This document shows positions 791-61,742 of a DNA stretch of 64,000 nucleotides, piece by piece. The stretch covers positions 186,001 through 250,000 of the forward strand of contig JAHEEA010000001.1 of NCBI GenBank assembly GCA_024640945.1, given 5' to 3'. The translations under genes were made by a program, and so were the position numbers. The notes under the pieces were generated by a model, which was not told the DNA's origin, did not search any database, and saw nothing but the letters and a program-made list of their open reading frames with translations. Source of the DNA: Candidatus Methylopumilus sp. Its GTDB lineage: Bacteria; Pseudomonadota; Gammaproteobacteria; Burkholderiales; Methylophilaceae. Position 1 is the first letter of the stretch. Each line of letters begins with the position of its first letter.

Positions 791-1380
791 GAATTAAATG
801 CGGGGCCTGGCTGCCAAGTACCGTTAAGAAACTTCTCTGCCCACATTAATGAAACAATGGTTTTGCCATCGGTTAATTCTCCAGATTGAATCATGGATAA
901 AGCTTCTTCCATAGACATCGCAAATAATTGCAAAGCTTCGTCTTCATCACGACTTGGGGTGCCCGATATCAAACCTCGCGCTAAGAAAATATGGATCACC
1001 TCAGTGGAATACCCAATGCAAGGATGTTGCAAACCAAGGTACACCCAATCAGTTGCCTCAAAGCCAGTCTCTTCAAGCAACTCACGCTGACCTGTTAATA
1101 ACAAGTCTTCGCCCGGATCAATTTTACCTGCGGGCAGTTCAATAAAAATACGGTTAAGCGGGTAACGGAACTGACGTTCAAATAATATTTTTCCATCATC
1201 TAGCACTGGGATAATAATCACGGCGCCAGGATGAACTAAAAATTCACGCTGCCCTAGATTACCACTTGGCAATCGCACTTGATCACGCTTAGCTAATATC
1301 CAATTACCTTGTAAGATGTCTTCTGATGAAATACAGGTTTCAATGAGTTCGTCAGGAATGTCTTTATCAAATTTAATCAT
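787..1380 (-). CDS. NUDIX hydrolase, probable ADP-ribose pyrophosphatase
   Basis: 197 residues. A complete Nudix box (GX5EX7REUXEEXGU) spans residues 85-107, with Gly85, Glu91, Arg99-Glu100 and Glu103-Glu104 in the expected places for Mg2+ and diphosphate binding. The segment before it (ERQFRYPLNRIFIELPAGKI) is the pattern of the NudF/ADP-ribose pyrophosphatase subgroup, which splits ADP-ribose or similar nucleoside diphosphate sugars to AMP plus sugar phosphate. Its start overlaps the stop of the upstream TPR lipoprotein gene by 4 bp and its stop overlaps the YeeZ-like start, so the three probably share a transcript. The exact substrate cannot be read from sequence. Confidence 0.92.
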   Translation of the reverse strand: MIKFDKDIPDELIETCISSEDILQGNWILAKRDQVRLPSGNLGQREFLVHPGAVIIIPVLDDGKILFERQFRYPLNRIFIELPAGKIDPGEDLLLTGQRELLEETGFEATDWVYLGLQHPCIGYSTEVIHIFLARGLISGTPSRDEDEALQLFAMSMEEALSMIQSGELTDGKTIVSLMWAEKFLNGTWQPGPAFNS

Positions 1381-2279
1381 TTCGTTTTAAAGCTTTCTTG
1401 AACAATCTGCCAACGGCCTGCAACCCTAAGTAATTTCAATAACTTTCTACCAGTATCCTTGTAATTACCTGCCTGATATTGCTGGATAAAAGTGACTTCC
1501 AATTGGTCATTAGCAATGCTTTCCCAATGAACATCAGTAATAGTCAAATTAACTGACTGATTAGCAGCTAATTTACTCTTACGCTGCTCACGCCAAATAA
1601 CAGCTGTTTTACTATCACCAGAGAACGTATTCACATAATGATTAAAATAACTCTTAAGATTTCTAGAAGTCCAGGCTTCCCGCCAAGAATCTAAAAATGC
1701 ATGGACTTCCGTATCTACTTGAGCATTGTTAGAAGACTGCTGCCCGATTAATTCAGGTGGTAGAACCGTAGGAACATCTTTGACATCTTTAGGGGGCGCA
1801 ATCACAAAATCTAAACCCCTGGGCTTCTCATATTGTTTAAATTTTTCTTCACGCTTAACCTCAACAGATGCTGCTGCAGGCTTTGAAAGAACAGACTTAG
1901 GAGTTAGCTTAGTTTTTCTATCGCGCGCTGTTTTAAGCTGAGCATCAGAAGCCTGCGAATCATTAATAATAAATTGGTAATTATTCAGTGCTTGAGCCAC
2001 CCGACCATCGTGCTCATAGGCATCTGCTAATTTAATACGCAATTCCAAATCATGTGGCTTGATGCTGACTGCATTTTCATAAGCTGTCATAGCTAAACCC
2101 CAGTCTCCCTGACCAATTGCCACATTAGCCTTTGCAACCAATTCATTAATTTCCGAATCGGTAGCAAATCTTTTATATGTTTCATCAACGAATGCACAAC
2201 CTGCAATGCTAATGCATATCAGATAAATTATGGCGCGGTTGAGTATTCTTCCATAAGGAAAGCGGTTAAAGCGATTCAT
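1377..2279 (-). CDS. TPR lipoprotein with C-terminal NTF2-like domain (copy A)
   Basis: Predicted outer-membrane or periplasmic lipoprotein. A hydrophobic signal segment ends in the lipobox IAGC. One to two TPR helices follow (AIGQGDWGLAMTAYENAVSI and a second repeat), then a linker, then a roughly 110-residue C-terminal domain of NTF2/SnoaL-like character with W..AW, QRK, Q.Y and W.IV.ESF signatures. It is a paralogue of the next gene upstream, with the same architecture. An upstream ATG at 2303 lies inside a terminator hairpin, so I place the start at 2279; 2288 is also possible. It overlaps the NUDIX gene by 4 bp. Function unknown; similar C-terminal domains occur with peptidoglycan-related proteins, so an envelope role is only inferred. 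Confidence 0.78.
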   Translation of the reverse strand: MNRFNRFPYGRILNRAIIYLICISIAGCAFVDETYKRFATDSEINELVAKANVAIGQGDWGLAMTAYENAVSIKPHDLELRIKLADAYEHDGRVAQALNNYQFIINDSQASDAQLKTARDRKTKLTPKSVLSKPAAASVEVKREEKFKQYEKPRGLDFVIAPPKDVKDVPTVLPPELIGQQSSNNAQVDTEVHAFLDSWREAWTSRNLKSYFNHYVNTFSGDSKTAVIWREQRKSKLAANQSVNLTITDVHWESIANDQLEVTFIQQYQAGNYKDTGRKLLKLLRVAGRWQIVQESFKTK

Positions 2280-2302
2280 GTCATCCATTATTAATAAAAA
2301 CA

Positions 2303-2348
2303 AAAAAGGCTTTATTTACCAGAATAATCTAATAAATAAAGCCTTTTT
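2303..2348 (-). terminator. Rho-independent terminator between the two TPR lipoprotein genes
   Basis: A long stem of about 16 bp (left arm near 2303-2318, right arm 2333-2348) contains GGCTTTATTTA and its complement, flanked by A and T runs on both sides. It lies just downstream of the 2362-3306 gene on the minus strand. It would end or attenuate the transcript coming from nuo and DUF2818, leaving the following genes with their own promoter. Confidence 0.75.
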
Positions 2349-2361
2349 AAATGATGTGAGA

Positions 2362-3306
2362 TTAATGTTTAAATGATTCCTGAACAATTACCCAACGATT
2401 TTTTTCACGTTTCAATCGTAGCGTTTTATTGCCCTTGTCATTATATGAAGCAGATTGATAATTCTGAGTAAACTCTACATCAAATGTATCTTTCGCTACA
2501 TTCTTCACATTGAAATTGCTTAATTCTAATTTAATAGATTTACCATGTGAAATCTTACTTTTTCGTTGTGCTAGCCAAGCTTTTCTAGTTTTAGCTTCAC
2601 CTTTGAAATCCTGAGCGTAATGATCAACATAAGCATCTAAATTCTGATCAATCCAAGCAGAACGCCAGCCTTCAACTGCAGCTAAAATTGCTGCATCTTC
2701 TGGGTTGTTTGCAGGCTTAGCAACTTCAGGTGCCACTGCCTTTTCTTGAGCAACTGCTACAGGGGCTTTTGGTGCAGGAGCAGGGGTAGGCGCAGCAGCA
2801 ACATCTGCAGGCTTATATGCATTTGCAGGTATTTCTAAAGGACGCTTAGCTTCAGCAATCGTTTCCGCTACAGCAGCTTTACTATCAAGTGTGATAGTAG
2901 AAGCTGGCTTTGCATCGGGCGCTGCCGGCTCTTTACCAAAACCTAATTTAGCTTGATTGGTTTTTGCGATAGCAATAACTTTTTCTGAACTATCGACACC
3001 GTTAGCTGAATCAATAATCACTTGATAAATATTAAAAGCCTGAGCCAATTTACCATCAAGCTCATAAGCCTTAGCTTGTTTTAACTTCAAGTCCCAATCG
3101 TTAGGTTTAAGCTTTGCAGCTTCTTCATACGCCGCAATCGCTTTACCAAAATTACCGATTTCCATCGCAGAGTCGCCTTTAACAACTTGCGTATTAAAAT
3201 CACCATTAGGGAAAAATTTCTCACTAATTTCTTTTGTATATGAGCATGACGCTAATACTACCAATAGCGCTGAAATAATCATTAAATACTTATAGCTTTT
3301 CTTCAT
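2362..3306 (-). CDS. TPR lipoprotein with Ala/Pro-rich linker and C-terminal NTF2-like domain (copy B)
   Basis: 314 residues. The signal peptide ends in lipobox LAS-Cys21. TPR-like helices follow at about residues 40-105 (MEIGNFGKAIAAYEEAAKLK and the next repeat), then an Ala/Pro-rich low-complexity linker at about 130-200, then an NTF2-like domain at about 208-312. A strong Shine-Dalgarno (GGAGG) sits 5-6 bases before the ATG. The C-terminal domain aligns by eye with that of the neighbouring copy A and with the long BamE homologue at 59862-61193. It sits 18 bp after the DUF2818 gene with no terminator between them, so nuo readthrough is likely. Probably envelope-located; role unknown. Confidence 0.8.
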   Translation of the reverse strand: MKKSYKYLMIISALLVVLASCSYTKEISEKFFPNGDFNTQVVKGDSAMEIGNFGKAIAAYEEAAKLKPNDWDLKLKQAKAYELDGKLAQAFNIYQVIIDSANGVDSSEKVIAIAKTNQAKLGFGKEPAAPDAKPASTITLDSKAAVAETIAEAKRPLEIPANAYKPADVAAAPTPAPAPKAPVAVAQEKAVAPEVAKPANNPEDAAILAAVEGWRSAWIDQNLDAYVDHYAQDFKGEAKTRKAWLAQRKSKISHGKSIKLELSNFNVKNVAKDTFDVEFTQNYQSASYNDKGNKTLRLKREKNRWVIVQESFKH

Positions 3307-20424: not shown

Positions 20425-21099
20425 TTAAAAAAAACCAACTTTTGATTGCAGATATCGATAAAAAACTGATATTTTTTTCAACCAATAAACAGCCATTCGC
20501 CGAACAAAATATCTCAATAAGCGAACTTGACGCTTTAAAGGTGATTTATGAAAGATCTTAGCACTATGATGATCAATACGAAATGTGCTTAAGGTGATCC
20601 TGAATGGCAAATAAATCCAATATAAAAACACTTTCAATAAGCGGCTAATAAATATCATGCAACTCTTAATAGCACGACCAATCGAATAGTCATCAAGCGG
20701 GGTCTTATCTAAAATAGCACGTAAGACATTCAAAAAAGCTGAGGGATACTTCTGATTAATTCCAGAGAGTTTTTTGAGGTTAACAGGGGAATGGATCAAA
20801 GGGGTGGCGTCACCTTCATAATCAAAAGATGCTGTTAAATTATTTTTTTCATTCTCAACAAAACGCTTATGTTCTCTCGCCTTCAGGCGCGCTTGATTTA
20901 AAGTAAATTCAGGATAAGCACCTATACGTACAATGTATTGCTTATCATTTAAAACACTTTCGAACTGAAAGACCTTGGTGCCGTCAGGCGCAACAAGTAC
21001 AAACAACCCACCGCCATCATTCAAAACGTAAGGGGTCGCACTAGCTTCTGCAGCTTCAATTGTCGCGAGGTCTAGTAGCTTATCTGCAAATCTCACCAT
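20425..21099 (-). pseudogene. Truncated/decayed P4-type tyrosine integrase
   Basis: The first 85-90 residues form a P4-integrase Arm (DUF4102) domain: LNDGGGLFVLVAPDGTKVFQ, then YIVRIGAYPEFTLNQARLKA. Family integrases are about 400 residues; this frame stops at 224. The following stretch keeps a few catalytic-domain echoes (HKSPLKRQ, resembling the 'H.VPLS.Q' block) but has no recognisable R...HxxR...Y set, and large parts of the domain between Arm and catalytic core are missing. I read it as an inactive remnant with internal deletions and a C-terminal truncation. It marks one end of a former integrated element, opposite in strand to the SSAP gene. Confidence 0.8.
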
Positions 21100-59015: not shown

Positions 59016-59816
59016 CTAACGCAGACCTAGCACGTCTTGCATATCAAATAAGCCTGATTTTTTATCAGCCATAAACTTTGCTGCACGAAGCGCACCCAAA
59101 GCAAAAGTCGCCCGACTACTGGCCTTATGCGTCAATTCAACACGCTCGCCAATACCTGCAAACAAGACAGTATGATCACCTACAACGTCACCGCCACGAA
59201 CTGTTGCAAAGCCAATTGTATTAGCATCACGCTCACCCGTGACACCCTCGCGACCATAAATTGCACAGGTTTCAAGATTGCGACCTAAAGCATCAGCTGC
59301 GGCCTCACCCAAACGTAAAGCTGTACCAGAAGGCGCATCGACTTTATGGCGATGATGCGCTTCAATAATCTCAACGTCATAACCTTCATCCAAAACCTTG
59401 GCAGCAGCTTGTACTAAACTAATCAATAAAGTAACACCCACGCTCATGTTCGGCGCGAACACTACAGGAATAGTTTTTGATGCTGATTCAATCAGGTTTT
59501 TTTCAGCGGCACTAAATCCAGTCGTCCCAATGGCCATGCTTACGCCCACTGCCTGACAAGCAGCCAAATACTGCAAGCTAGGCTCAGGACGCGTAAAATC
59601 AACCAAGACATCAGCGCCTTGTAAAGCACTCACAACATCATGACTAATTTTCACGCCAGTAAGTTTACCAAACTGCTCCCCAGCATCACGTCCAATTTGC
59701 GGACTATCACCACGATCAAGTGCAGCATGCAAAGTTAACTCTGGATCAGAAAAAACTCCATCCAACAAAGCATGTCCCATGCGACCAGAGCAACCAGCAA
59801 TCACTACTTTTAGCAT
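59016..59816 (-). CDS. dapB: 4-hydroxy-tetrahydrodipicolinate reductase
   Basis: 266 residues from the ATG at 59816 (MLKVVIAGCSGRMGHALL); an upstream start at 59834 adds six residues. NAD(P)-binding GCSGRMG at the N-terminus and the catalytic EAHHRHKVDAPSGTAL block around 155-170. Fourth step towards lysine and diaminopimelate. The order bamE-dapB-carA is conserved. Confidence 0.97.
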   Translation of the reverse strand: MLKVVIAGCSGRMGHALLDGVFSDPELTLHAALDRGDSPQIGRDAGEQFGKLTGVKISHDVVSALQGADVLVDFTRPEPSLQYLAACQAVGVSMAIGTTGFSAAEKNLIESASKTIPVVFAPNMSVGVTLLISLVQAAAKVLDEGYDVEIIEAHHRHKVDAPSGTALRLGEAAADALGRNLETCAIYGREGVTGERDANTIGFATVRGGDVVGDHTVLFAGIGERVELTHKASSRATFALGALRAAKFMADKKSGLFDMQDVLGLR

Positions 59817-59861
59817 TTCAAATTCACTTCTCAATAAAACTTAATAAAATATAAGCACCGC

Positions 59862-61193
59862 TTAGAAGCCAATTTTCTCAAGCATACGCTCAAAGTAACC
59901 AGGCTCATCAGCTGATAAAGGCTTGTCCTTAGCGGACTGCGGTTTAGATACAGACTGCTCAACATCTTTCTTAACAGGGTCTTGCACAGACTCTGGTTGT
60001 ATTTGGAACTCAGGTGCAATAGTTAGAGGCTTATCAACCGGAGAATCCAAAATTTCCATTTTAGGCTTCTTATGGTATTCGGCTTCCTCATCAGGAGACT
60101 TAACGATCTTAGCTGACTCCATGACCACTGGTTTCCCATTCAAACTTATTTTAGAAGTAACTGATTCTTTCACAATCATCCATTTATTTTTGTCACGCTC
60201 AAAAACCAAAGTCAACACCTTAACCACTTGATCACTATAGCGCGGAGAACTATAGTGCTGAAAAAACTCAACATTCGCCTTATTACCGTCAACGCTTACT
60301 ACCACGTTTTCCAGCCCCAACTTAATATCGCCTTGTTTCGCAGATAATCGTTTCTTACGTTGCAACAACCAAGCTTTTTTAGTCAAGCCAATAGGTTTAA
60401 ATTGATTAGAATAAAAACTCAGGTACACACTAATATTTTTATTACGCCAAGCATCTGCCCAACTAGCAACTCTCTCAAGCACTTGATTCTTATCATCAAC
60501 GACAGTATCTGTTTGATGGTGGGCGATAGGTTGCTTCAGCTCGGAAGCATCTTTAATAACCTGCAAACTCGATGAATTTTCACTAACCACTTTATCTTCT
60601 AAAGATTTTGGTGCTGAAGCTACAATAAGGGGTGGCCCAACCACTCTGGAAGACTGAATGGAATCAGCAATTTTAGATTCCAACTTCTCAACTGGCTTGC
60701 CCGCAACCTTAGATGGCACCTTATCAACGAGTTCATCACTTCCCCAAAACTTGAATCGATCAAGCCAGCCCTTTTTAGGATCTTCATTCAATAACGCTTT
60801 ATTACTCTTGGCAGTTGTCACATCTTCAACTGAAGCCATTGCAACGCCTTCAGCCCCAGGCTGCCCTGAAAGAATTACGTCCCCACGAACAGCTTTCAAC
60901 CCATTGTCACTAAATTCTAAAATGACGCGACGGCGCTCAATCACTCGGCCATCTTTGTTCATTTGATATAGATAATCCCAACGATCAAGATGGAAACTAT
61001 CTTGCAGTAATGGCGTACCCATAACATAACGCACCTGAGATTTAGTCATGCCAGGCTTAAGCTGCATCATCATTTTCGATGTCACAACATTACCCTGCTG
61101 AACATCAAGCTTGTATGTTTTAAAAGAAGGCAGCGTAGATGTGCAAGAAGCACTTAACAAAGCAAGCAATAAGATTAGATGACGCATTATCAT
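59862..61193 (-). CDS. BamE-family lipoprotein fused to an NTF2-like C-terminal domain
   Basis: 443 residues. Lipobox LSASC (Cys17), then a BamE-like fold (about 25-108) with LKPGMTKSQVRYVMGTP and DRWDYLYQM. Normal BamE is about 110-150 residues. A long linker (about 110-235) leads to an NTF2-like domain (about 240-346) with W..AW, QRK, FFQHY and W.IVKES signatures, matching the C-terminal domains of the two TPR lipoproteins at 1377-3306. A disordered, Pro/Lys tail follows. BamE belongs to the outer-membrane protein insertion machine; the extra domain is unusual. It sits next to fur, as standard bamE does. Confidence 0.88.
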   Translation of the reverse strand: MIMRHLILLLALLSASCTSTLPSFKTYKLDVQQGNVVTSKMMMQLKPGMTKSQVRYVMGTPLLQDSFHLDRWDYLYQMNKDGRVIERRRVILEFSDNGLKAVRGDVILSGQPGAEGVAMASVEDVTTAKSNKALLNEDPKKGWLDRFKFWGSDELVDKVPSKVAGKPVEKLESKIADSIQSSRVVGPPLIVASAPKSLEDKVVSENSSSLQVIKDASELKQPIAHHQTDTVVDDKNQVLERVASWADAWRNKNISVYLSFYSNQFKPIGLTKKAWLLQRKKRLSAKQGDIKLGLENVVVSVDGNKANVEFFQHYSSPRYSDQVVKVLTLVFERDKNKWMIVKESVTSKISLNGKPVVMESAKIVKSPDEEAEYHKKPKMEILDSPVDKPLTIAPEFQIQPESVQDPVKKDVEQSVSKPQSAKDKPLSADEPGYFERMLEKIGF

Positions 61194-61310: not shown

Positions 61311-61742
61311 ATGACGATACGCGACCCTGACGAGTTAAAAAGTGTAGGCCTTAAAGCAACGCTACCTAGATTAAAAGTACTCAGTCTTTTTGAAAACAGT
61401 AAAGAACGTCATTTATCAGCCGAAGATGTATATAAGGTATTGCTTAACTCGGGTGATGACGTTGGCCTTGCAACAGTTTACAGAGTACTAACGCAATTTG
61501 AACAAGCTGGATTATTGGTTCGCCATCACTTTGAAGGTGGCAAAGCTGTATTTGAGCTCAATCACGGCACGCATCACGATCATATTGTATGTATGCAATG
61601 TGGCGTAGTTGAAGAATTCTGTGATGATAAAATTGAAGTGCTACAACACAAAGTAGCGGAGGAACGAGGTTTTAAGATTAAAGAGCATTCTCTTTATATT
61701 TATGCAGACTGCAATAAACAATCCTGCAGAAATAAAGCTTAA
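61311..61742 (+). CDS. fur: Ferric uptake regulator Fur
   Basis: 143 residues. Winged-helix N-terminus (LKSVGLKATLPRLKVLSLFE), the metal-binding HHDHIVCMQCG region and a second cysteine pair in YADCNKQSCRNKA, all expected for Fur. It represses iron uptake genes when iron-loaded. It is divergent from the BamE gene and converges with recN (4-bp stop overlap). Confidence 0.96.
   Translation: MTIRDPDELKSVGLKATLPRLKVLSLFENSKERHLSAEDVYKVLLNSGDDVGLATVYRVLTQFEQAGLLVRHHFEGGKAVFELNHGTHHDHIVCMQCGVVEEFCDDKIEVLQHKVAEERGFKIKEHSLYIYADCNKQSCRNKA

Follow-up and report, generated by a model that had tools for sequence, protein, structure and literature searches.

The L,D-carboxypeptidases Csd6, Pgp2, and Bd1075 carry a C-terminal NTF2-like domain (PF24125; Csd6_C, spelled Cds6_C in Pfam). 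The pocket of this domain binds peptidoglycan fragments in Campylobacter jejuni Pgp2, as mapped by NMR; binding of the ligand is weak, the K307A variant is weakly pulled down by sacculi, catalytic-site variants likewise bind sacculi poorly, and cells with Y233A, K257A, or K307A are straight while those with F242A or E324Q are intermediate (PMC8038945). Bdellovibrio Bd1075 needs its NTF2 domain to reach the convex side wall (PMC8938487). Peptidoglycan binding has also been described for BAM subunits of E. coli, where the complex favours mature, tetrapeptide-rich wall; BamA and BamC are crosslinked to peptidoglycan in cells and native BamE is not (PMC9242858). What is new in the protein described here is the combination of a known BAM subunit with a known peptidoglycan-binding domain: an open-access library, searched by title and start of the abstract, yielded no publication on a BamE–NTF2 fusion, and domain databases may already list the architecture.

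The gene lies in a stretch of 64,000 nucleotides from Candidatus Methylopumilus sp. (the window), at positions 59862–61193 on the minus strand, and was identified by its open reading frame, which starts with MIMRHLILLLALLSASC, by the translation of 443 residues, and by a match to the BamE family PF04355. Its neighbour on the 3' side is presumably a dapB-like gene (59016–59834, minus strand), and the divergent neighbour is one that we take to be fur-like (61311–61742, plus strand), both names being read from the translations. Far from this locus, an ORF at 20425–21099 has an N-terminal part that we assume to resemble an integrase arm domain, followed by other sequence. The BamE protein begins with a signal peptide and the lipobox LLSASC ending in Cys17 (aa 1–17; 61143–61193, minus strand), which were read from the sequence and conform to a lipoprotein signal, and Cys17 is invariant across 13 aligned BamE fusions. 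The BamE domain follows at aa 34–101 (60891–61094, minus strand; E 1.8e-24) and scores 85.8 bits against a curated cut-off of 23.2. As the sole PF04355 match found in this genome, which is 96.6% complete, the protein is the organism's own BamE and not an extra paralogue.

Beyond the BamE domain there is a short predicted helix at aa 141–155 (the KGWLDRFKFWGSDEL region; model helix 143–150; 60729–60773, minus strand), and a linker of 134 residues, mostly disordered, leads to the NTF2-like domain of the Csd6/Pgp2/Bd1075 type at aa 234–348 (60150–60494, minus strand). The Pfam match to PF24125 spans aa 238–343 (E 2.2e-15, 57.3 bits against a curated cut-off of 27). The domain is followed by a tail of 99 residues with a conserved C-terminal helix, predicted at aa 429–443 (DEPGYFERMLEKIGF; model helix 433–440; 59865–59909, minus strand). 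Besides BamE and PF24125, the only Pfam family above its cut-off is SnoaL_3, which falls on the PF24125 stretch; no Pfam match was found to the YkuD catalytic domain, nor to an OmpA-type peptidoglycan-binding domain in a listing to E 10 that, after filtering, retains few matches above about 0.1. In our view, an ordinary BamE lipoprotein has probably acquired here a module expected, by homology, to bind peptidoglycan.

Overall confidence in the AlphaFold2 model of the whole protein is low (mean pLDDT 66.7, pTM 0.39), and the model is uninformative on domain packing; by part, ten-residue means of pLDDT are 83–98 in the NTF2-like domain and 62–92 in the BamE domain, and the linkers are of low confidence. 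The first-pass annotation had linked the added domain of BamE to those of two TPR lipoproteins of the window, A and B, and the model of TPR lipoprotein B has the same order of elements as the BamE copy, with three helices and four strands at aa 202–313. The first four Foldseek matches of both models are Bd1075 (7o21) and Pgp2 (6xj7), with E 1e-8 for the BamE model to 7o21, and Csd6 (4xzz) ranks 9 for the BamE model and 6 for the TPR-B model; the BamE half of the former matches N. gonorrhoeae BamE (5wam) at rank 5. By VIA-align, the three carboxypeptidases are among the best matches, with Z for the BamE model of 15.6 for 7o21 (rmsd 3.1, 122 residues aligned), 15.4 for 4xzz (1.7, 110), and 15.1 for 6xj7 (1.7, 112), yet they are tied with unrelated NTF2-like folds. 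The specific kinship to Bd1075, Csd6, and Pgp2 therefore rests on sequence: in a profile search of the PDB with the domain, E ≤ 0.01 was reached by chains of these three proteins only.

The same annotation had seen a C-terminal pattern common to BamE and the two TPR lipoproteins and had described the three as a set with one shared module. Its motifs (W..AW, QRK, Q.Y, and W.IV.ES) do occur in all three, as does PF24125, and Pfam, pairwise, and profile–profile comparisons, predicted structure, and tree all argue for a common module; the domain is, however, internal in BamE, and the set has five members in this genome rather than three, namely BamE, three TPR proteins, and one YkuD enzyme. TPR lipoprotein A (1377–2303, minus strand) has its NTF2-like domain at 1395–1706 and TPR lipoprotein B (2362–3306, minus strand) at 2377–2688, corresponding to C-terminal PF24125 matches at aa 200–303 (E 1.8e-14) and aa 207–310 (E 4.9e-19), respectively. 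The remaining two copies are encoded by adjacent genes on contig 10, one for a TPR protein and one for a YkuD-domain protein; at L002:1-1833, a TPR-NTF2 gene adjoins a YkuD-NTF2 gene. In pairwise blastp, BamE aligns with TPR-B at 73.9 bits (42% identity) and with TPR-A at 53.9 bits (34%), against a best score of 23.9 bits for shuffles of the NTF2-like domain of BamE with the domains of these two partners (n = 2000). When six groups of the domain were compared profile to profile, probabilities ranged from 98.8 to 100. In the genome's YkuD protein the active-site motif is CIV, that is, Val where most L,D-transpeptidases have Arg. Because Bd1075 has Val at this position as well (PMC8938487), the enzyme is more likely of the carboxypeptidase type.

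Pgp2 residues Y233, F242, K257, K307, and E324 correspond to Y257, F265, R279, K325, and E343 of the window BamE, with K257 replaced by Arg; the register of the alignment was checked by the 6xj7 row, a K307A variant, which has Ala at the expected place. The five positions are kept as Y, [FY], [KR], K, and E in 81 of 83 distinct BamE-fused domains, the exceptions being L084 (Gln for Arg) and L247, which has lost its last part at a contig end. All five columns are within the 20 most conserved of 107, and random sets of five columns were equally conserved in 21 of 100000 draws; this conservation may in part be structural. The other four copies in the genome retain the same five positions, and YkuD-fused domains have Lys in the K257 column, counted from the Trp four residues before it, in 43 of 45 cases, the other two being off-pattern. 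In genome G003 (96% complete), the BamE copy is the single PF24125 match, has the longest branch, and is without the K257 equivalent. Such decay is what would be expected if the partner proteins or their ligand matter, and it is one case.

A BamE match was found in 143 of 150 sampled Methylophilaceae genomes, and the best BamE ORF was read in all 143. The NTF2-like domain is present in 33 of these ORFs, 14 of them with two copies; 33 is a lower bound, since four of the 110 unfused ORFs lack their 3' end. By genus, the fusion occurs in 10 of 10 genomes of the window's genus, all of them small (0.8–1.8 Mb), in 19 of 21 of g20 (one is without it and one is cut), in the single genomes of g4 and g5, and in 2 of 23 of g7, while the other 18 Methylophilaceae genera with a BamE match have none, so that 5 of 23 genera are fused. 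Outside the family, fusions were found in 13 of 97 Gallionellaceae genomes with a BamE match, five of them with two copies, and in 17 of 61 Thiobacillaceae genomes. These two counts refer to best BamE matches, for which 30 loci were read in each family together with 5 and 14 long-frame ORFs, respectively; the remaining best-match frames are at most 198 aa, and the shortest fusion frame is 256 aa. Both samples also contain weaker second BamE matches, some of them within long frames. The first family (f24) was assigned to Gallionellaceae since the named loci L149 and L172 fall among its tree rows, and the second (f42) to Thiobacillaceae since L148 and L154 (Thiobacillus) fall among its rows, as does L180 (Hydrogenophilaceae). 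No BamE match was found among the best 29 new loci of a class sample of 370 genomes, and a BamE-like paralogue with a PF24125 domain is present in L216, from another family. In all, 63 genomes of three families, the window's included, encode the domain in the same uninterrupted frame as BamE; this excludes a frameshift or assembly error joining two genes, which the first-pass annotation had named as a possible artefact.

The domain itself is far more widespread than the fusion. PF24125 occurs somewhere in 133 of 150 family genomes, and a domain alignment found matches in 165 of 300 genomes of an order sample and 65 of 370 of the class sample. Since so many genomes have the domain and so few the fusion, the enzyme side of any such system does without a tagged BamE; likewise, with only 33 of 143 Methylophilaceae BamE ORFs (again a lower bound) carrying it, BAM as such can do without the domain. 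That the fusion replaces a lost BamC was also considered and is excluded, because 142 of the 150 family genomes, including that of the window, have BamC (PF06804), and the window fusion is thus not a BamC substitute.

BamE of this family is long even where it is unfused. The first-pass annotation had put the protein at about three times the family length; the domain explains its 443 residues only in part, as unfused BamE ORFs of the family measure 230–444 aa from stop to stop (in the 104 of 110 that are free of a contig-end cut). Fused or not, BamE of the family has a KLKFW-like (xFW) motif after the BamE domain in 129 of 143 ORFs. Of the 138 ORFs whose 3' end is intact, 137 terminate in [IV]GF, typically as GYFERMLEKIGF. 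Endings similar to GYFERMLEKIGF are seen in other Betaproteobacteria (e.g., L156, L177, L190, and L204). In Methylophilaceae, the NTF2-like domain is located between the xFW motif and the C-terminal helix, behind a linker of 125–528 residues; in the fusions of Gallionellaceae and Thiobacillaceae it is at the extreme C-terminus. The two g7 fusions (L097 and L098) are 78–80% identical to unfused g7 BamE over the N-terminal 150 residues, while their NTF2-like parts have no match in unfused g7 and share 50% and 66% identity with their closest g20 counterparts among the fusions; the DNA of g7 neighbours matches these loci up to the module and then again past it. From this comparison, the module was gained, lost, or exchanged as a unit, in either direction, and, judged by these identities, it sits in the two g7 genomes on a BamE core of another lineage. 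In g20, the tree groups the first copies together (support 95) and likewise the second copies (84), apart from L081, which is unplaced; both groups lie within a single clade (support 95), which points to one duplication.

How often the fusion arose is addressed by two trees, for which the domain offers about 110 columns, few for this question. A tree of 170 rows separates the BamE-fused domains by family, with two groups for Gallionellaceae, and places L084 apart on a long branch. In a 132-row tree, from which L084 and rows of long proteins were dropped, in which the rest was thinned at 80% similarity, and for which L216 was not counted, the 58 BamE-fused domains lie on one side of a branch with a support of 61, which is not significant, and the copies of Methylophilaceae and Thiobacillaceae group together (support 85). 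When the copies of Gallionellaceae and Thiobacillaceae were constrained to group together, the likelihood exceeded that of the unconstrained search, and the constraint withstood the test (p-AU 0.84).

We propose a model in which the NTF2-like domain of the window BamE, given the binding expected from its relatives, most likely tethers BAM to peptidoglycan, and we regard this as the probable reading. Lipid-anchored BamE would sit in the BAM complex, its linker would bridge the distance between outer membrane and wall, and the pocket of the NTF2-like domain would weakly hold stem peptides of peptidoglycan, whereby BAM would be tethered to, or paused at, wall stretches that offer suitable peptides. 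The same wall feature might be read by the YkuD enzyme and the TPR proteins, such that wall trimming and outer-membrane assembly would be co-located. A docking role on the peptidoglycan side was also the guess of the first-pass annotation, for which homology to Pgp2 and the kept pocket now argue; its restriction to the envelope of this lineage did not stand, as the domain is distributed more widely. Against this model stand the many functions that NTF2-like folds serve, the weak ligand binding of Pgp2, the poor sacculus binding of its catalytic-site variants, and the result that native E. coli BamE was not crosslinked to peptidoglycan in cells.

A different role for the domain, which we consider unlikely but the strongest of the competing explanations, is that of a protein–protein module, where copies pair with each other or share a partner and BamE recruits the TPR or YkuD proteins without touching the wall directly. 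The presence of five copies in one genome would suit such a role, as would the existence of proteins with two to four copies, and NTF2-like folds often oligomerise, CaMKII hubs being among the structural matches. Gene order fits as well: a YkuD-NTF2 ORF has a second, non-YkuD NTF2 ORF within 1.5 kb in 30 of 30 family loci and, among the best loci listed for the class, in 24 of 29, and this neighbour is a TPR protein in 7 of 7 examples scanned. However, Bd1075 is reported to be monomeric, and Csd6 and Pgp2 dimerise via an N-terminal region that is absent from Bd1075 (PMC8938487), and a pairing role sits poorly with the place of all five pocket columns among the 20 most conserved of 107. We think it less probable still that the pocket holds another envelope ligand, such as a sugar, a lipid-linked precursor, or a client's C-terminal peptide, with BamE as a sensor or in substrate handling; the very varied functions of the NTF2-like folds among the structural matches leave room for this, but the residues kept in the pocket are the ones tested for peptidoglycan, and the YkuD enzyme of the same genome, of a family that acts on peptidoglycan, has the domain too. 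Neutral accretion of a common periplasmic domain into a long and tolerant BamE linker, with no function in BAM, would account for the patchy distribution (5 of the 23 Methylophilaceae genera in which BamE was matched) and for linker lengths of 125 to 528 residues, but it is very improbable given a pocket kept in 81 of 83 domains, presence in every one of the 10 genomes sampled from the window's genus despite their size of 0.8–1.8 Mb, and the occurrence of fusions in three families, two of which also have second copies.

Returning to a tether between BAM and the wall, we note that PF24125 is also found on other proteins of related genomes, which were picked from matches in the order sample mostly for long frames, so that their shares are no census. 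Among them are further TPR proteins and nine distinct TolC-type OEP proteins (PF02321; ten were scanned, two being the same gene) with a C-terminal PF24125 domain: L211:19-1830, L214:19-1830, L223:1-1869 (the same gene as L385:943-2823), L225:4-1830, L372:826-3105, L386:688-2619, L387:2114-4042, L388:2195-4003, and L389:2069-4009. On these efflux channels, the domain is a possible wall dock, and the positions of the hosts fit a docking role because several of them lie at the wall or reach through it. Other hosts were seen as well. In a FimV protein (L384:949-4431), the PF24125 domain precedes the FimV_N domain; one protein (L368:2499-5069) has four PF24125 domains as its only Pfam matches at E ≤ 0.001; and two proteins of one genome (L374:829-3567 and L375:811-3555) have a DctM-like membrane part with a C-terminal PF24125 domain. 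The DctM-like hosts are unexplained by a role in wall docking.

How cells couple the insertion of outer membrane proteins to the condition of their wall is an active question, and a domain of the wall-binding kind on a BAM subunit offers a defined pocket for which a loss-of-binding mutation is known in a relative. Because the fusion is present in some lineages and absent from close sisters, it provides a clean switch, with the domain present, absent, or altered as K325A, for probing the effect of a tether between BAM and the wall. PF24125 is also a candidate for a general docking tag of envelope machines. It is tempting, if doubtful, to speculate further that it is a portable wall-address tag of the order, carried by the enzyme, TPR, BamE, TolC-type, and FimV proteins and directed at one state of the stem peptide, and that, where BamE bears the tag, peptide trimming by the tagged L,D-carboxypeptidase creates or removes the sites at which BAM docks, thereby programming the places of outer membrane protein insertion.

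Compared with Csd6, Pgp2, and Bd1075, the window BamE has in common with them the NTF2-like domain, its fold, and the pocket residues, but here the copy is on BamE, a protein without the YkuD catalytic domain. With BamE of E. coli and Neisseria it shares the lipobox, the BamE domain, the status of the only copy found, and the match to 5wam, whereas the solved BamE chains that it matched are short (87–176 aa) and the window protein extends to 443 aa with its linker, NTF2-like domain, and C-terminal helix. TpgA of Acinetobacter, the N-terminal part of which matches the window BamE weakly (9vnj_B, E 0.09), has an OmpA-like peptidoglycan domain of a family other than PF24125. RmpM, too, is a protein that binds the wall. 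TpgA combines its peptidoglycan-binding domain with a partnership with an autotransporter adhesin (PMC13082670), while Pal anchors BAM in Caulobacter (PMC2797634) and RmpM is a constituent of BAM in Neisseria (PMC6604945). In these last two systems, an accessory protein with an OmpA-type peptidoglycan-binding domain thus accompanies BAM as a separate protein; the domain of the window protein, in contrast, has a different fold and is a covalent part of BamE itself.
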